Shown here: one piece after another, positions 4,019-11,060 of the stretch
Layout: the number at the start of each line of letters is the position of its first letter
Position numbering within the stretch: the stretch's first letter is position 1
NCBI RefSeq assembly: GCF_039545795.1
Contig: NZ_CP154260.1
Coordinates: 2,485,001-2,549,000, forward strand
Direction of reading: 5' to 3'
Source: Chitinophaga niabensis
GTDB lineage: Bacteria; Bacteroidota; Bacteroidia; Chitinophagales; Chitinophagaceae
DNA length: 64,000 nt
Notes under the pieces: model-generated
Database searches by the model: none
What the model was told of the DNA's origin: nothing
The model's input: the letters and a program-made list of their open reading frames with translations, nothing else
Translations under genes and position numbers: made by a program

Positions 4019-4047
4019 CCCGGATAACGATGTTGTCCGGGTTTTTT
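4019..4047 (+). terminator. Terminator after leuB
   Basis: A 10-bp stem (4019-4028 and 4032-4041, one G-T pair) with a 3-nt loop is followed by six T residues. The next gene, on the opposite strand, ends at 4046, inside the T run. Confidence 0.85.
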
Positions 4048-4501
4048 ATTTATTCTTTAGCTGCGCCCAGGGAGTTCTGATCCCCAGTAACTTTCCAAGG
4101 AAGAGTGCCAAAGGTATCAATTCATACCTGAAGATCCCCGGCGCGGCAGACATGGCATAGGAACAGAGTGTAATGCCAATCAGCGCATCTACGATGGCGA
4201 TATCAATAGCCCAGTCATTTTCAGTCAGCAGCGCGTAGGCTGTAAATGCATTGAAGAGGATAACGCTGGCTAAGATGATGCCGGCAGGAGAGAAAACATC
4301 TCTTGCAGTGATGCCATATGCATCAAAGTACACATTGTCGCTACCCGTCAGCGTCATAATAAATGCAATGGGAACAGTAATGATACCAAGCATAAAGAGC
4401 CAGTTGCAGTACCTGATCCACCATGGAAGAAGGTCGGTTCTGTTTGGTTCTATATCATGCTCCAGGTTGGGTTCTATATCATGCTCAAATGCGGCGGCCA
4501 T
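4046..4501 (-). CDS. Small multi-pass membrane protein of unknown function
   Basis: 151 residues. The N-terminal 20 residues carry a tandem octapeptide repeat (EHDIEPNL then EHDIEPNR), encoded by a 24-bp direct repeat. Three or four hydrophobic segments follow: about 33-52 (LFMLGIITVPIAFIMTL), 72-92, 96-115, and possibly 124-140. The C-terminus is short and basic. No signal peptide, enzyme motif or named domain is recognised. It is divergent from the NamZ gene (78 bp between starts) and convergent with leuB. Possibly an integral inner-membrane protein of a Bacteroidota-specific family. Confidence 0.7.
   Translation of the reverse strand: MAAAFEHDIEPNLEHDIEPNRTDLLPWWIRYCNWLFMLGIITVPIAFIMTLTGSDNVYFDAYGITARDVFSPAGIILASVILFNAFTAYALLTENDWAIDIAIVDALIGITLCSYAMSAAPGIFRYELIPLALFLGKLLGIRTPWAQLKNK
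4446..4486. repeat. 24-bp tandem duplication coding for EHDIEPN
   Basis: The 17-bp segment GGTTCTATATCATGCTC occurs at 4446-4462 and again at 4470-4486, a period of 24 bp. It duplicates eight residues at the N-terminus of the membrane protein without breaking the frame, and looks like a recent slippage duplication. Confidence 0.85.
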
Positions 4502-4579: not shown

Positions 4580-5761
4580 ATGCGTCTACGTTTTGCGCTA
4601 TTGCTCATAGCCCTTCCTTTTGTCAGTTTAGCAAAAGACCCCATCCTTACGGGGGCTGACCAGTTATCCGCTTACCTGCCTTCCCTGAAAGGGAAAAAGG
4701 TGGGCATGTTAGTGAACCAGACATCCCTGATCGGCGGTAAGTCCATCGTGGACAGCCTGCTCGCTTTAGGCGTGAACATTAAAATGATCTTTGGCCCGGA
4801 ACATGGTTTTCGTGCAAATGCCAGTAACGGCGCAAAGGTGGCGGATGAAATAGATGCCAAAACGGGCATTCCCATTATCTCTTTATACGGCGCCCGCAAG
4901 AAACCAACTAAAAAGGAACTGGATGCGCTGGACATCATGATCTTTGATATCCAGGACGTAGGCTGCCGTTTCTACACAAATATCAATACCCTGAGGGACA
5001 TCATGGAAGCCTGTGCTGAAAACGGCAAGGAACTGATCATCCTGGACAGGCCTAACCCCAATGCCTATGTGGATGGGCCTATATTGGATATGAAGTATAA
5101 ATCCGGCATCGGGCAGTTTCCCATTCCTATCACGCATGGCATGACGGTTGGGGAATTTGCGCAGATGGTGAACGGAGAAGGATGGATGGCCGGTAAAGTA
5201 AAATGTAAGATTAAGATCATCAAGGTAAAGAACTGGACGCACAACATGGATTACACTTTGCCTGTAGGTCCTTCGCCTAACCTGAATACACAGCAGTCGG
5301 TATTACTTTATCCCTCCCTGTGTTTATTTGAAGGTACCATCATCAGCCAGGGACGTGGTACACATATGCCTTTTACGGTTTTGGGTGCACCTTTATTAAA
5401 AGGGATCTATCCCTTTACTTTTACCCCTGTGAGCATCCCCGGTAAATCTGAAACACCATTACACCAGGATAAGGCCTGTTACGGGCTGGACCTGAGGAAT
5501 TATAATACTGCAGCGATCCGTAAAGCGGGTAAGGTGCATATTGCCTGGATGATAGAAATGTACAAAGCTTATCCTGATAAGGCGAAGTTTTTTGACAGAT
5601 CACAGAGCAAACAAATGGGTAATATCGATTTTCTGGCAGGGGTTGCTCAATTTAAAGAACAGATCATAGCGGGGAAAAGTGAGGAAGAAATTCGCCAAAG
5701 TTGGGAACCGGGATTGAGCAATTATAAGAAGATGCGTAAAAAGTATCTTTTATACCCCTGA
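4580..5761 (+). CDS. namZ: Exo-beta-N-acetylmuramidase NamZ-like (DUF1343) protein
   Basis: 393 residues, the usual length for the DUF1343 family, whose characterised member NamZ removes terminal MurNAc from peptidoglycan fragments. A Sec signal peptide (FALLLIALPFVSLA) directs export, so the protein should work in the periplasm in cell-wall turnover. Family hallmarks are VGMLVNQTSL (41-50), the catalytic-site motif FGPEHGFR (71-78), MIFDIQDVGCRFYT, LDRPNPNAYVDGP and the TVGEFAQMVNGE block. The start is the ATG preceding the signal peptide. It is monocistronic, between a divergent membrane-protein gene and a terminator. The gene symbol rests on the family; substrate specificity is not visible from sequence. 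Confidence 0.88.
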   Translation: MRLRFALLLIALPFVSLAKDPILTGADQLSAYLPSLKGKKVGMLVNQTSLIGGKSIVDSLLALGVNIKMIFGPEHGFRANASNGAKVADEIDAKTGIPIISLYGARKKPTKKELDALDIMIFDIQDVGCRFYTNINTLRDIMEACAENGKELIILDRPNPNAYVDGPILDMKYKSGIGQFPIPITHGMTVGEFAQMVNGEGWMAGKVKCKIKIIKVKNWTHNMDYTLPVGPSPNLNTQQSVLLYPSLCLFEGTIISQGRGTHMPFTVLGAPLLKGIYPFTFTPVSIPGKSETPLHQDKACYGLDLRNYNTAAIRKAGKVHIAWMIEMYKAYPDKAKFFDRSQSKQMGNIDFLAGVAQFKEQIIAGKSEEEIRQSWEPGLSNYKKMRKKYLLYP

Positions 5762-5787: not shown

Positions 5788-5819
5788 AAAACCTGCGCTT
5801 GCCGCAGGTTTTCTTTTTT
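5788..5819 (+). terminator. Terminator after namZ
   Basis: A perfect 10-bp stem (5788-5797 AAAACCTGCG, 5803-5812) with a 5-nt loop is followed by CTTTTTT. Confidence 0.9.
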
Positions 5820-5871: not shown

Positions 5872-7584
5872 ATGGCAGTAAGGAAAAAGAACACCAGATC
5901 TATATTACCGAAAACGCCCACAGGTATAACCGGGCTGGACGAAATAACAATGGGCGGTTTGCCCAAAGGGCGCCCAACCCTTATTTGTGGCGGTGCAGGA
6001 GCAGGAAAAACATTATTTGCTATAGAATTTATTGTGCGGGGTGCTACAGATTATGGTGAGCCAGGTGTGATCGTAACCTTTGAAGAAAAGGCGGAAGATC
6101 TGCAGCAGAACGTATCATCATTGGGATACGACCTGAAGAAGATGCAAAAGGACGGCCTGCTTAGAATGGACTTTGTACATATTGACCGCAGTGAAATAGA
6201 AGAAACAGGGGAATATGACCTGAGCGGCCTGTTCATCCGTTTGAACCATGCCATTGACAGTATTGGTGCAAAACGGGTAGTGCTGGATACCATTGAGAAC
6301 CTTTTTGGTGGTTTAACGAATGAAGGTATCCTGCGGGCAGAACTCCGCAGGCTCTTTGCCTGGTTGAAGGATAAAGATGTAACAGCTGTGATCACCGCGG
6401 AGAAAGGAGATGGTACTTTAACCCGCCACGGGCTGGAAGAATATGTATCTGACTGCGTGATCCTGCTGGATCACAGGGTGATTGAGCAGATCTCTACCCG
6501 CCGTTTAAGAGTCGTAAAATACCGTGGCTCAGAACATGGTACCAATGAATATCCTTTCCTGATAGAGGAAGATGGCATTTCCGTATTACCCATCACCTCT
6601 TTGAAACTGGATAACAAGGTTTCCTCCCAAAGAGTATCTTCCGGCATTACGGGAATGGATCAGATGATGGATGGCAAAGGGTTTTTCCGTGGCAGTTCTA
6701 TACTGATATCCGGAACAGCAGGAACAGGTAAAACAAGTATTGCTGCTAATTTTGTAGATGCTGCGTGTAAAAGGAAAGAGCGCTGTCTTTATTTTGCCTT
6801 CGAAGAATCGCCCGCACAGATCATCCGAAATATGGGATCCATAGGCCTTAACCTGCAAAAACATGTGGATGCAGGACTGCTGCATTTTCATGCTTCCCGG
6901 CCAACTTTGTACGGACTGGAAATGCACCTGGTGACGATCCATAAAAAGATAGAAGAGTTAAAACCCCGCATTGTTGTGCTGGATCCCATCACTAACCTGA
7001 TCACTGCAGGTCTGATGCCGGAAGTGAAATCCATCCTGATCCGGCTGATCGATTACCTGCAGGTTAACCAGATCACGGTAATGTTTACGGCACTTAATTT
7101 GAACACCGCTGTAAGTGAGCAGACGGATGAGGGAGTATCCTCACTGGTGGATGCCTGGATCATGATCAGGTATATTGAAACCAATGCAGAACGTAACCGG
7201 GGATTACATATCATGAAATCCCGCGGTATGAAGCATTCCAATAAGGTACGTGAATTTATGATCAGTGACGAAGGGCTTGACCTGATGGATGTATATAATG
7301 GCCCGCATGGCGAAATCCTTACAGGCTCTGCCCGGGAGGCACAGCAATTGGTAGAAGTCACCGGTGCTGAAATGCGCAGTTATACCTTAGGCAGGAAAGA
7401 CAAACAGATAGACCGTAAGCGCAAAGTGCTGGAAGCCAAAGTAGCCTCACTGCAGGAAGAATTTGCTACTATTCAGGAAGAACTGTACCAGTCGTATGTG
7501 GAAGAGGATCTTCGCAAGGAGATCATGGAAAAGAACCGTAATCAGTTATCTAAAAAGCGTAGCAATGGCAAAAGAAAAGATTAA
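5872..7584 (+). CDS. kaiC: KaiC-like two-domain ATPase/autokinase
   Basis: 570 residues with two tandem RecA-like KaiC domains. Domain CI (about 15-245) has Walker A GGAGAGKT (40-47), the catalytic Glu pair E71-E72 in VTFEE, and a Walker B-like RVVLDT (135-140). Domain CII (about 255-490) has Walker A GTAGTGKT (281-288), E311-E312 in FEES, and IVVLDP (366-371). Aligned by eye with cyanobacterial KaiC, the phosphosite segment [10 protein letters not shown] gives T418, S423 and S424 where cyanobacteria have T426, S431 and T432, so the second phospho-acceptor is Ser. Instead of the short cyanobacterial A-loop tail there is a charged, probably coiled-coil extension (about 505-565). It is first in a packed cluster with two kaiB genes, a kinase and a receiver; no kaiA is present. 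A stress or signalling hub is as likely as a true clock. Confidence 0.93.
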
Positions 7585-7876
7585 ACAGGCAAAAGCAGAG
7601 AAATGGGAATTGCGTTTATACATTGCCGGCAATACGCCGAAATCTATGACGGCACTCGCCAATCTGAAAAGATATTGTGAACAACATTTGCAAGATAAAT
7701 ACACCCTTGAAATAATCGATCTCCTGGTGCAGCCGCAACTTGCTGCGGGTGATCAGATCTTTGCGATCCCCACATTGGTACGCAAAGTTCCGGTACCCAT
7801 CCGCAAGATTATAGGCGACTTGTCCAACGAAGAAAAAGTATTGGTTGGACTCAACATCAGACCCATAAAAAAATAA
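7565..7876 (+). CDS. kaiB: KaiB-like protein 1 (canonical type)
   Basis: 103 residues, typical for KaiB. I chose ATG 7565 because the KaiB fold begins shortly after it ([13 protein letters not shown]); the longer upstream reading is KaiC sequence in another frame. KaiB is a thioredoxin-like, fold-switching protein that binds phosphorylated KaiC. Conserved features are YIAGNTP (19-25), [20 protein letters not shown] with its Pro-rich turn, and the near-invariant [16 protein letters not shown] (81-96). The gene overlaps the kaiC 3' end by 20 bp, indicating translational coupling, and is followed one base later by the second kaiB. Confidence 0.92.
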
Positions 7877-7877
7877 G

Positions 7878-8201
7878 ATGCGAAAAAAAGAAGAACAGCA
7901 GTTGAACATCAATCCATCGGCCCCGGAAGCTGAGTTTGTTCTTCGCCTATTTGTAACAGGTGCCTCACCTAATTCTGTACGGGCTATTTCAAACCTGAAA
8001 GAGCTTTGTGAAGAGTATTTGAAGGGGAAGTATTCCCTGGAAGTGATAGACGTGTACCAGGAGACTGCTATAGCACAGCAGGAACAGATTGTGGCACTTC
8101 CCTTGCTGATAAAAAAATATCCATTTCCGGAAAGGCGGATGATCGGAGACTTATCTGATACTGACAAAGTATTAAAAGGCCTTGGTTTAAAAGCTCACTG
8201 A
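7878..8201 (+). CDS. kaiB: KaiB-like protein 2 (divergent paralogue)
   Basis: 107 residues. It shares the KaiB core: LFVTGASPNSVRAISNLKEL, LEVIDVYQ and MIGDLSDTDKVLKGL near the C-terminus. It differs from its neighbour where canonical KaiB has a PTL turn: here it reads ALPLLIKKYPFPERR. It also carries an N-terminal extension of about 18 polar residues. The pair therefore looks like an old duplication with division of labour rather than a recent copy. Its stop overlaps the kinase start (ATGA-type overlap, 8199-8203). It probably binds KaiC or the adjacent kinase; cyanobacterial SasA carries a KaiB-like domain on the kinase itself. Confidence 0.88.
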   Translation: MRKKEEQQLNINPSAPEAEFVLRLFVTGASPNSVRAISNLKELCEEYLKGKYSLEVIDVYQETAIAQQEQIVALPLLIKKYPFPERRMIGDLSDTDKVLKGLGLKAH

Positions 8202-9532
8202 TGGAAGAACAGCAAAACATAACAGCGCTGCAGGCTGAGCTGGAAGAACTACGGCATCAGCTATGGGAAGCGCAGGAAACGATAGAAGCTATCCGCACAG
8301 GGCAGATAGATGCCATTGTAGTGAATGGCAAAAATGGTCATGAACTGTATACGCTGAAAACAGCGGATTACAGTTATCGTGTATTCATTGAAAAGATGAC
8401 GGAAGGCGCTGTGTCGCTTAACTACGAAGGAATTATCCTCTACTGTAATTCACAGTTTGCCTCTTTGCTGAACATGCCCATTTCCAAAGTGATAGGTATG
8501 CCTTTCCAGGATTTTGTGCCGGAAGAAAGCAAGCGCAACCTCCGGCGCCTGTTTGAAAACAGCTGGTCCAAAGACTGTAAGGAAGAAGTATTACTACGTA
8601 CCTGCGACCTGGAGATACCGGTGCTGCTTTCACTTACAGCCCTGGAGTTTAATGAGAACATGGCGCTGAGTATAATTGTTACAGACCTCACGGCACAAAA
8701 GAAAACCCAGCAGGAACTGGAAAGAAAAAATGCACAGCTGGCCAGGATGAACCATGAGCTGGGATTGAGCAATCATGACCTGCAGCAATTTGCTTCCGTG
8801 GCTTCGCATGATCTGCAGGAACCGCTTCGTAAGATCCAGATATTTTCCAACCTCCTGAAAGATCATAACAGGAAAACGCTTTCCGCTGAATCCAAAAGAT
8901 TCCTGGACAAAATAATGAGTTCTGCTAAGCGGATGAAAACCCTGATCCTGGATATACTCAGCTATTCCAGGTTATCTGCGGCCAATAATATATTTGAACC
9001 CGTTGATCTGAATGAGATCGTAAAGGACCTGCTGGAAGATTTTGAACTGATCATCCAGGAGAAAAATGCAGATATCCGGGTAGGGGACCTGCCGCAGATT
9101 GAAGCCAACAGGGGGCAGATCAGGCAGGTGTTCCAGAACATGGTGTCCAACGCCCTGAAATTTTCAAAGGCAGAGGAGGCACCTGTTATTGAGATTAGTG
9201 GTGCTTACCTGGAGGAAAAATCATTTGCAGCTCCGCAGCAGTCTGAAGGGCCTTATTGTTTGATCCGGATAAAAGATAATGGAATAGGATTTGACCAGAA
9301 GTATCAGAACCATATCTTTGCACTGTTTGAACGGCTACATTCAAAAGATAGTTATGAAGGTAGTGGGATAGGCCTGTCCATCACCAAAAAGATCATAGAA
9401 AAACATGATGGCTTGGTACAGGCCTGGGGGATACCTGGAGAAGGGGCCGAATTTTTACTGTTATTACCCGTCTTCCAGGAGAAAAATACACAACATGTAT
9501 CTACGCAAGAAGATCTTATTGGCCGAGGATGA
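8201..9532 (+). CDS. Soluble PAS-domain sensor histidine kinase of the Kai cluster
   Basis: 443 residues with no transmembrane segment or signal peptide, so cytoplasmic. Order of parts: an N-terminal coiled coil (about 1-30), a PAS domain (about 58-165), a second coiled coil (165-192), a HisKA dimerisation/phosphoacceptor domain with H203 in ASHDLQEPLRK, and an HATPase_c domain with N-box NMVSNALKFSK, G1 IKDNGIGFD and G2 GSGIGLSI. It autophosphorylates on His and should pass phosphate to the receiver encoded immediately after it. It starts inside the kaiB2 stop and overlaps the receiver gene by 38 bp. Its role relative to KaiC probably parallels SasA or CikA, although it has no KaiB-like domain of its own. 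Confidence 0.93.
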   Translation: MEEQQNITALQAELEELRHQLWEAQETIEAIRTGQIDAIVVNGKNGHELYTLKTADYSYRVFIEKMTEGAVSLNYEGIILYCNSQFASLLNMPISKVIGMPFQDFVPEESKRNLRRLFENSWSKDCKEEVLLRTCDLEIPVLLSLTALEFNENMALSIIVTDLTAQKKTQQELERKNAQLARMNHELGLSNHDLQQFASVASHDLQEPLRKIQIFSNLLKDHNRKTLSAESKRFLDKIMSSAKRMKTLILDILSYSRLSAANNIFEPVDLNEIVKDLLEDFELIIQEKNADIRVGDLPQIEANRGQIRQVFQNMVSNALKFSKAEEAPVIEISGAYLEEKSFAAPQQSEGPYCLIRIKDNGIGFDQKYQNHIFALFERLHSKDSYEGSGIGLSITKKIIEKHDGLVQAWGIPGEGAEFLLLLPVFQEKNTQHVSTQEDLIGRG

Positions 9533-9884
9533 TAAAGATGATCAGGACTTCTTCCACGACTTCCTGCATGAGAGAGAGGATATACATTTACTACCCATTG
9601 CCAGCAATGGAGAAGAATTGCTGGAATACCTGCATAACACAACGGAACTGCCAGACGCCATTATACTGGACCAGAACATGCCCAAACTCAATGGCCTGCA
9701 AACCTTACAGCAACTAAAGATCACCAGCCGCTATTCAGATATTGCGGTGATGGTGTATTCCACCTCCACAGACGATAACCTTATCAAAGAAAGCAATATG
9801 CTTGGCGCAACCCTGGTAGTGAGCAAACCCAGCAGTTACAAAGGTTATCAGCGCATGATAGATGAGCTGATCAGCCATCTGTAA
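9495..9884 (+). CDS. Single-domain response regulator (receiver only)
   Basis: 129 residues forming one CheY-like receiver with no output domain. Visible residues are the acidic cluster E11-D12-D13, phosphoacceptor D59 in AIILDQNMP, the Ser/Thr switch after VMVYST, and K111 in VSKPSS. I start at ATG 9495 because the receiver begins right there (KKILLAEDD) and the extra upstream residues overlap the kinase out of frame. The length and the pairing with a PAS kinase resemble Rcp1-type receivers of phytochrome kinases. Without an output domain it must act by protein contact or in a phosphorelay. Confidence 0.92.
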   Translation: MYLRKKILLAEDDKDDQDFFHDFLHEREDIHLLPIASNGEELLEYLHNTTELPDAIILDQNMPKLNGLQTLQQLKITSRYSDIAVMVYSTSTDDNLIKESNMLGATLVVSKPSSYKGYQRMIDELISHL

Positions 9885-9956
9885 GCTGAAGCGAGTGACA
9901 CAACGGCGGCTGAAGAGTGAACAATCGCCGGCTACATAAATCTTTTATTCTATCCG

Positions 9957-11060
9957 ATGGACTATACAAGTTTAGCCAGGAGGTTCACGTCTCGTTTTCC
10001 ATTGCTCAGTTACCTGGGTACACAGATCAATTTCTGGATCATTGCCAATATTTTCCTGGGAAGCATCATGCATTTGCAGGCTTTATCCATTGAAGAAACC
10101 ACCCACATTAAAACCCTGGTAAGTTATGGACAGATAGCACGCGTGGCTGTCATGCTGGGCTTTTTATATGGTATTGCATTGGGGTTAACAGACTGGTACC
10201 TGGACAAGCGCCGTTTTTATAAACGGCTTTCCATGGGTAAGGTCATCCTCTTTAAAACAGCCGTTTCCGTTAGCCTGATCTTCGTGATCCTGATACTGAT
10301 CAGGGGGGCGTTCTGGCGTTTAAGCATCAGCCATAAGGCATGGTCATACCTGTTTTACATTATGCTTATCTATTACCTGGCCATGACCATGATCATCAAC
10401 TTCATTAACCAGGTGAATAAAAAATACGGCCCGGGCGTGCTGGTGCCTTTGTTACTGGGTAAATACAGGAACCCCAGAGAAGAAGAACGCATTTTTATGT
10501 TCATGGACCTGCAATCTTCCACAGCCATTGCAGAGCAATTGGGCCATCTGAAATACAGCGCATTCATCCGCGATAGTTTTATGGACATTAACCAGGTGCT
10601 GTTACCTTTTAATGCAGAAGTGTATCAATATGTAGGAGATGAAATTGTAGTAACCTGGCGGATCGATGAAGGGCTTAAAGACCTTTCCTGTGTACGGTTT
10701 TTCTTTGGTTGTGAATACCGTTTCTTTGAGCGTATGGATTATTATTTGTCCCATTACGGTGTGCAGCCCCGTTTTAAAGCAGCCCTGCATATGGGGAAAG
10801 TAATGGCGGTGGAAATAGGAGAGGTGAAGCGGGATATTGCTTATCATGGAGATACGCTGAATACAGCATCGAGGATACAAAGCGTTTGCAACGATTATAA
10901 TAAGCTGCTGCTTATTTCCACCTATATGCTGGAGGCGATGGGAGAACAACATGCCCGGCTCCGTACCACGCCATTGGGTATGATCCGTTTAAAAGGGAAG
11001 GCTTCGAAAGTGGGTATTGCCAGTATAGAAGGATTGGATAATCAGACTTCTCCCGTATAA
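9957..11060 (+). CDS. Membrane-anchored class III adenylate/guanylate cyclase
   Basis: 367 residues. Four transmembrane segments (about 23-43, 60-80, 97-117, 131-152) precede a class III cyclase catalytic domain (about 175-350). Metal-binding aspartates are D184 in FMDLQSST and D228 in YQYVGDEIVV. The transition-state Asn and Arg lie in HGDTLNTASRIQ. The product is probably cAMP or cGMP; substrate choice cannot be settled by eye. It begins 72 bp after the receiver gene on the same strand, so it may be the output end of the Kai/two-component cluster or an independent unit. Its end overlaps a convergent methyltransferase gene by 19 bp. Confidence 0.9.
   Translation: MDYTSLARRFTSRFPLLSYLGTQINFWIIANIFLGSIMHLQALSIEETTHIKTLVSYGQIARVAVMLGFLYGIALGLTDWYLDKRRFYKRLSMGKVILFKTAVSVSLIFVILILIRGAFWRLSISHKAWSYLFYIMLIYYLAMTMIINFINQVNKKYGPGVLVPLLLGKYRNPREEERIFMFMDLQSSTAIAEQLGHLKYSAFIRDSFMDINQVLLPFNAEVYQYVGDEIVVTWRIDEGLKDLSCVRFFFGCEYRFFERMDYYLSHYGVQPRFKAALHMGKVMAVEIGEVKRDIAYHGDTLNTASRIQSVCNDYNKLLLISTYMLEAMGEQHARLRTTPLGMIRLKGKASKVGIASIEGLDNQTSPV

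Follow-up and report, generated by a model that had tools for sequence, protein, structure and literature searches.

Background

Gene clusters that join kaiC and kaiB to signalling genes are already in print for several bacteria outside the cyanobacteria (statements on this literature refer to excerpts of the papers cited). In a 2011 survey, clustered kaiC and kaiB genes were followed by a histidine kinase or a GGDEF/EAL protein, and other kaiC genes often by a receiver (PMC3164672). A kaiC-kaiB-PAS histidine kinase operon with a single predicted promoter was reported from Rhodopseudomonas palustris in 2016 (PMC4794148), KaiB2 and KaiC2 of Bacteroidetes were described in 2017 (PMC5520375), and a 'kaiCBB' cluster beside a diguanylate cyclase followed in 2018 from Thiodictyon syntrophicum (PMC5944118). 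The KaiBC system of Rhodobacter sphaeroides has been described as an hourglass coupled to the ATP-to-ADP ratio (PMC10076222), and the kinases of Rhodospirillum rubrum and R. sphaeroides have been suggested as oxygen or redox inputs (PMC10931921). In this article we analyze a kai cluster in a stretch of 64,000 nucleotides from Chitinophaga niabensis (contig NZ_CP154260.1, positions 2,485,001 to 2,549,000; hereafter the window), which consists of kaiC, two kaiB genes (KaiB-a in first and KaiB-b in second position), a PAS histidine kinase and a lone receiver, with a membrane nucleotide cyclase as the next gene (Table 1).

The closest described system, that of R. sphaeroides on plasmid pB, has the same type of KaiC with two phosphoserines and a C-terminal extension, and its kaiB is followed by a PAS kinase that shares the N-terminal motif; it differs in having one KaiB, an HWE kinase where the window has HisKA, and no receiver gene annotated alongside. 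Compared by description, the R. palustris operon agrees in gene order but has one KaiB and no receiver named in the excerpt (PMC4794148), whereas the T. syntrophicum cluster agrees in having kaiC with two kaiB genes and an adjoining signalling protein, which is a diguanylate cyclase instead of a kinase (PMC5944118). The KaiB2/KaiC2 pair comes from the same phylum and a double serine is described for KaiC2; the excerpts of that survey do not mention a two-KaiB arrangement and judge a SasA-type read-out unlikely outside cyanobacteria (PMC5520375).

The unit in the window is a probable KaiBC operon that lacks KaiA and combines two KaiB lineages with a kinase bearing a Kai-linked, putative reader module; the 'kaiCBB' arrangement itself was already known. 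What looks new is the N-terminal part of the kinase, ~170 residues, and its link to KaiB. A preliminary description of this DNA had called the pathway unexplored, which is too strong for kaiC-kaiB with a kinase, for KaiB2/KaiC2 and for 'kaiCBB', all of them published. Neither the module nor a division of labour between two KaiBs was found described in the open-licence papers searched, which is not proof of absence.

Results and discussion

Conservation of the kai unit

The best 80 of at least 565 related stretches in the genome collection were kept as named loci. This set is biased towards relatives of the window KaiC, less so a second draw based on KaiB, and several contigs end early, so that counts of receivers and cyclases are lower bounds. 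Exactly two KaiB genes lie behind KaiC in 77 of the 80 loci, three in 2 and one in 1, where a spurious open reading frame (ORF) may conceal the first KaiB. A protein with a PAS front end follows the KaiBs in 79 loci, and the contig of the 80th ends before that point. Pooling all loci with a KaiC above 500 bits gives 126, or 122 without identical ones, among which 103 have two KaiBs and a PAS protein, 2 have three KaiBs, 11 have one KaiB and a PAS protein, 5 have one KaiB alone and 1 has two KaiBs without a PAS protein. The KaiB-based draw contains 28 genomes with the module, 20 with two adjacent KaiBs and 8 with one.

The set recurs in distant bacteria and archaea, and the order KaiC-KaiB-KaiB-kinase without KaiA is conserved far beyond Chitinophagaceae. 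The six-gene order envisaged in the preliminary description survives for five genes, the receiver being less constant (after the kinase in at least 20 of the 80 loci), and fails for the cyclase. The recurrent unit comprises the five genes at 5872-9884.

Within the lineage the unit is patchy: KaiC (E <= 1e-60) occurs in 5 of 60 genomes of the genus and 13 of 147 of the family, and KaiB exceeds the Pfam cut-off in 37 of 395 Bacteroidota genomes. Since the neighbours of the kai genes also differ within the genus, this distribution suggests transfer or loss. An attempt to read an empty site gave no clean insertion point: NamZ is present in 60 of 60 genus genomes, and in nine NamZ regions without kai no window neighbour was recognised beside NamZ, apart from a single weak match of AraC type at a distance of a few genes. 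As a separate observation, three Bacteroidota loci (L061, L063, L093) show a different context for KaiB: it stands alone next to large proteins, which look like kinases in two of the loci, and the fetched stretch contains no KaiC.

A KaiB-linked module in the kinase

In the N-terminus of the kinase Pfam sees the PAS fold alone, from about residue 60. The most conserved stretch of the protein is residues 21-62 (L...L.EA...I.AIR.G..DA.VV....G...YTL..AD..YR), with a mean column agreement of 0.77 versus 0.62 for HisKA plus HATPase_c in the 50 relatives having both. This is the fair comparison; the difference in an 80-protein version (0.69 versus 0.42) is inflated, because rows without kinase domains count as disagreement.

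A profile of the module (A3, 174 positions) was searched across whole genomes irrespective of their kai content. Matches at E <= 1e-15 were found in 31 of the 395 Bacteroidota genomes. In 28 of these the match spans the whole module (E <= 2.4e-47); each of the 28 has a single such copy, at most 262 base pairs (bp) from a KaiB. The remaining three (E about 1e-17) match over the PAS portion alone, and their genomes have no KaiB match. In a second phylum (to which the L232 genome belongs, labelled Proteobacteria), 112 of 345 genomes gave matches at E <= 1e-12. These include 21 copies of full length (E <= 8.9e-49), spread over 19 genomes, all 21 within 552 bp of a KaiB. The remaining matches there have E >= 9.5e-28, and most among the matches listed cover the PAS part only. 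The window's own module detects 13 of the 147 family genomes, 11 of them KaiC carriers; in the two without a KaiC match (L270, L271) a KaiB lies directly upstream on a short contig, that of L270 beginning just before its two KaiBs. Eleven kai-carrying genomes outside Bacteroidota have exactly one module each, at kai. Without double counting, 70 of 70 full-length modules, in 68 genomes, stand beside a KaiB (at most 552 bp away). Of three weaker, nearly full-length matches, one (G829:C250, E 3e-14) adjoins a KaiB.

The expectation that the motif AIRxGxVDALVV would be widespread among proteobacterial kinases outside kai loci found no support in the genomes that were searched. Three other lines were uninformative or of low confidence: a plasmid search with one module returned just its own record and missed the R. 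sphaeroides kinase, and so was insensitive; the conserved hairpin (residues 38-51) is modelled with low confidence (block means 51-63); and a fold search with the kinase model was filled by kinase domains, which says nothing about the module. The genomic distribution makes a strong case that the module is a Kai-linked reader.

Outputs carried by the module

Both the kinase, with His203 and its N and G boxes, and the receiver, with Asp59, possess the phospho-accepting residue and surrounding motifs of two-component systems. The kinase has no strong membrane segment.

We scanned the outputs of 80 module proteins (79 from named loci and the one in the window; contig ends truncate a few). HisKA and HATPase_c were each found in 71, a fused receiver in 4, a sigma-54 activator with a Fis-type helix-turn-helix (HTH) in 3 and HisKA_2 in 1. 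L068 and L069 have HD-GYP-type HD domains, and L084 and L242 nothing recognised after PAS. A hybrid kinase takes the corresponding place in a kaiC-kaiB-kaiB cluster on Pararhizobium plasmid p3.

These outputs bear on the direction of the signal. The kinase might instead stand on the input side, sensing redox or oxygen and setting KaiC/KaiB accordingly, a role proposed in R. sphaeroides (reported in excerpts of PMC5520375 and PMC10931921), and its PAS domain would suit such a role. We consider this unlikely, since the same module is fused to effectors (sigma-54 activators and HD-GYP enzymes), which point to output rather than input, and since in L084 and L242 the module protein ends without a recognised enzyme. 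Even where the module serves as output, PAS may add a second signal.

Six Bacteroidota loci (L068, L069, L070, L071, L074 and L083) form a group in which KaiC is accompanied by just one KaiB, and the module proteins measure 383-392 amino acids. The two that were scanned, L068 and L069, carry the HD-GYP-type domains, through which Kai may be linked to cyclic-di-GMP turnover.

The two KaiBs

KaiB-a matches the R. sphaeroides KaiB (8fwj) at 98.8 bits, and by KaiB-b the nearest named relatives of the genome are Chitinophaga niabensis (G581, 93%) and Chitinophaga sp. SYP-B3965 (G550, 89%). In a tree built by a quick method from 109 columns, first- and second-position KaiBs fall mainly into separate clades, with 15 of 55 second-position KaiBs outside the main b clade; we read KaiB-b as probably an older, separate KaiB lineage. 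Its AlphaFold model is predicted in the thioredoxin-like, fold-switched state and resembles the N-domain of SasA. By sequence it is a KaiB, the SasA N-domain reaching just E 0.083. Five structures that match it in sequence and that we take to be ground-state KaiBs (1wwj, 1vgl, 2qke, 1r5p, 4kso) are not among the 50 fold matches listed, an absence that is uninformative.

In cyanobacterial SasA, a KaiB-like thioredoxin-fold domain and a histidine kinase together read KaiC (PMC5520375, excerpt), whereas the window has two separate proteins, the kinase bearing a PAS module. The window kinase matches the PAS, HisKA and HATPase_c families only and has no fused KaiB-like domain. An apparent KaiB-module fusion in G856 (one frame of 813 amino acids) is an artefact, as the DNA of L348 has 44 N between the two parts; by the listed frame lengths, no other KaiB shares a frame with the module in the genomes scanned.

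Three kinds of unusual loci deserve mention. L349 (G790:C178) reads KaiC-KaiB-KaiB-module (393 amino acids)-KaiB (78)-module (660), a tandem duplicate of the KaiB and module pair. In L085 and L086, from two genomes of one genus, the module is kept and an 82-amino-acid ORF without a KaiB match stands in place of a recognisable KaiB-b. In L352 an ORF of 127 amino acids (4586-4969) between the second KaiB and the module gene resembles four-helix-bundle proteins, presumably those known as S23 proteins.

We consider KaiB-b plausible, with moderate confidence, as an adaptor and likely partner of the module. The gene of the last KaiB lies at most 15 bp from the module gene in 68 of 79 named loci, the divergence of KaiB-b tracks that of the module, and the pair was duplicated together in L349 and stands alone in L271. 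A competing explanation is that KaiB-b is no adaptor: the module itself would contact KaiC or KaiB-a, and KaiB-b would act on KaiC as a further regulator, for instance a competitor that shapes dephosphorylation. The links between KaiB-b and module just listed argue against it, while the module's presence in single-KaiB systems and its persistence in L085 and L086 speak for it, and we give it a minority share of our belief. KaiB-b is in any case not obligatory, because single-KaiB systems exist.

KaiC

KaiC has Walker A motifs at 40-47 and 281-289 and Glu pairs at 71/72 and 311/312, and shows no strong membrane segment. Ser423 and Ser424 align with S413 and S414 of R. sphaeroides KaiC and with the two Glu of its phosphomimetic chain 8fwi. 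The closest solved chain is R. sphaeroides 8dba (623.6 bits, compared with about 338 bits for Synechococcus elongatus); with 730 bits the protein clears the cut-off of NCBIfam PRK09302 (408), and circ_KaiC gives 355.8 bits, under its cut-off of 546. The alignment to R. sphaeroides KaiC runs to residue 564 of 570, and several relatives have only 474-524 amino acids, which bears on the C-terminal coiled coil that joins two hexamers in the R. sphaeroides type. By these comparisons the protein is closest to the R. sphaeroides KaiBC hourglass type.

All 15 aligned KaiCs retain both phosphosites and the catalytic Glu pairs, as one would expect of a phosphorylation timer, although this is not decisive. 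The unit might instead use clock proteins as a gauge of ATP/ADP or as a scaffold and keep no time at all. The lack of a KaiA and the tie of the R. sphaeroides hourglass to the ATP-to-ADP ratio (PMC10076222, excerpt) favour such a reading, which we regard as a real possibility, though not the probable one.

The cyclase as neighbour

By alignment the cyclase has D184, D228, N302 and R306, which we take to be the metal Asp pair and the Asn/Arg transition-state residues. At what are presumably the base-selecting positions it has the unusual pair Gln224 and Ala295, where a photoactivated cyclase has Lys and Thr, a pair that does not reveal its product.

The preliminary description had tentatively counted this gene as a member of the unit, so that the six genes could form one pathway ending in cyclic-nucleotide signalling. 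Its support is the shared strand, the short gap to the receiver without a terminator-like site, and the position of the cyclase behind kai in the window genome and in two of its close relatives. The block LeuB-Orf151-NamZ-kai-cyclase-methyltransferase-NTF2-AraC is, however, collinear as a whole in these three genomes (the window genome, C. niabensis G581 and SYP-B3965 G550), so that co-location of the cyclase carries no special weight. The cyclase is present in at least 1 of the 80 named loci, that of SYP-B3965, where the gap to the receiver is 133 bp; the two other kai carriers of the genus (G564, G576) have different neighbours and no cyclase. Cyclase matches occur in 20 of the 60 genus genomes, with orthologues (77% identity or more) in 3; the other 17 (33-42% identity) have no KaiC match, and among the 19 other cyclase copies, 12 were inspected and none is beside kai genes. 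On conservation we reject the cyclase as the kai output, and a single six-gene pathway appears highly improbable.

Locus layout

Gene coordinates were taken from translation of the window, and domains from Pfam searches of the translated proteins (Table 1).

Table 1. Features of the kai locus and its surroundings, in window coordinates
Feature	Position	Strand	Description
KaiC	5872-7584	+	570 amino acids; two PF06745 stretches, 369.5 bits; Ser423/Ser424; C-terminal extension
KaiB-a (first-position KaiB)	7565-7876	+	103 amino acids; PF07689 91.2 bits
KaiB-b (second-position KaiB)	7878-8201	+	107 amino acids; PF07689 81.8 bits; predicted thioredoxin-like / fold-switched
PAS + HisKA + HATPase_c kinase	8201-9532	+	443 amino acids
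Kinase N-terminal putative 'reader' module	8201-8716	+	helix, conserved hairpin motif (AIRTGQIDAIVV...YTL..AD), PAS
Kinase catalytic part, HisKA + HATPase_c	8717-9532	+	His203
Lone receiver	9495-9884	+	129 amino acids; PF00072; Asp59
Membrane class III nucleotide cyclase	9957-11060	+	367 amino acids; PF00211 34.3 bits; four hydrophobic segments; neighbour, not member
Terminator-like hairpin	5788-5812	+	10-pair stem, T tail; pattern match only

The six genes of the preliminary description are all present and correctly placed on one strand. Successive spacings are a 20 bp overlap, a 1 bp gap, a 1 bp overlap, a 38 bp overlap and a 72 bp gap, so that the first five do overlap or nearly touch, as had been stated. 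Its gene-level account was likewise accurate: KaiC is a complete two-domain protein with both Walker A motifs and both Glu pairs, both KaiB homologues match PF07689, the kinase appears soluble, with a single weak hydrophobic stretch located within PAS, and KaiA is lacking, with no match in the genome (7.2 Mb, one contig) in a search whose control was positive in S. elongatus. A search for KaiB in the same genome returned KaiB-a and KaiB-b alone.

The terminator-like hairpin sits between the upstream gene, a NamZ-type muramidase, and kaiC; the scanned region contains 7 such sites versus 6.0 expected, and none in the gap between receiver and cyclase. The promoter pattern TTTG-N17-23-TANNTTTG, which we take to be the Bacteroidota consensus, has 3 matches in the window versus 2.4 expected, none of them before kaiC. 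Downstream, a methyltransferase gene is convergent with the cyclase. Further upstream lies Orf151 (4046-4501, minus strand), a small ORF without a Pfam match; at the corresponding place SYP-B3965 (L153) has three relatives of it in tandem.

Proposed mechanism

From the gene content, its conservation, the linkage of module and KaiB and the key residues we infer that 5872-9884 encodes a KaiC/KaiB timer or energy gauge, of the type known from R. sphaeroides and independent of KaiA, together with an output arm of its own. By homology to the R. sphaeroides protein, KaiC would autophosphorylate at Ser423/Ser424, and KaiB-a, like R. sphaeroides KaiB, would bind phosphorylated KaiC and reset it. KaiB-b, in its predicted thioredoxin-like state, and the N-terminal module of the kinase may then bind jointly to the complex of KaiC and KaiB and relay the state of this complex to the kinase. 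Given the adjacency of the genes and the key residues, the kinase would in turn phosphorylate the lone receiver. The job of SasA would thus be split between KaiB-b and the PAS kinase, with a reader module that can carry other outputs. Taken as a whole, we hold this scheme to have slightly better than an even chance of being correct.

Several observations weigh against it. A module protein occurs with just one KaiB in 11 of the 122 pooled loci, and one KaiB is also enough in R. sphaeroides and in the HD-GYP group; the second-position KaiBs outside the main b clade blur the separation of the two lineages. The AlphaFold prediction covers KaiB-b alone, and AlphaFold may prefer the fold-switched state for any KaiB. 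The receiver is an inconstant member. In the two phylum scans no more than 8 to 10 candidates were scored in each genome, and two weaker, nearly full-length matches (G646, E 9e-18; G638, E 5e-17) have no listed KaiB. Conversely, 9 of the 37 Bacteroidota genomes with KaiB (two of them with KaiB fragments only) and 16 of 35 in the second phylum are without a full-length module. Finally, the KaiB and module pair of L271 (G120:C483, 2462-4596) has no KaiC in the 2.4 kb before KaiB, nor does its genome, which is 78% complete, have a KaiC match, and this pair may work without KaiC.

Conclusions

According to excerpts of the 2017 survey, possible clocks outside cyanobacteria must use an output other than the SasA/RpaA route (PMC5520375). 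We tentatively propose, as an idea that could well prove wrong, that KaiC rings outside cyanobacteria are read by a helix-hairpin-PAS module with interchangeable outputs, mostly with a permanently fold-switched second KaiB as adaptor, which would amount to a SasA in two parts, either older than the fused form of cyanobacteria or parallel to it. For the question of how the KaiC signal leaves the Kai system in these organisms, a module with swappable effectors would offer a concrete candidate for the read-out together with a sequence tag by which to recognise it, and the small set of KaiC, two KaiBs, kinase and receiver could be reconstituted in vitro.

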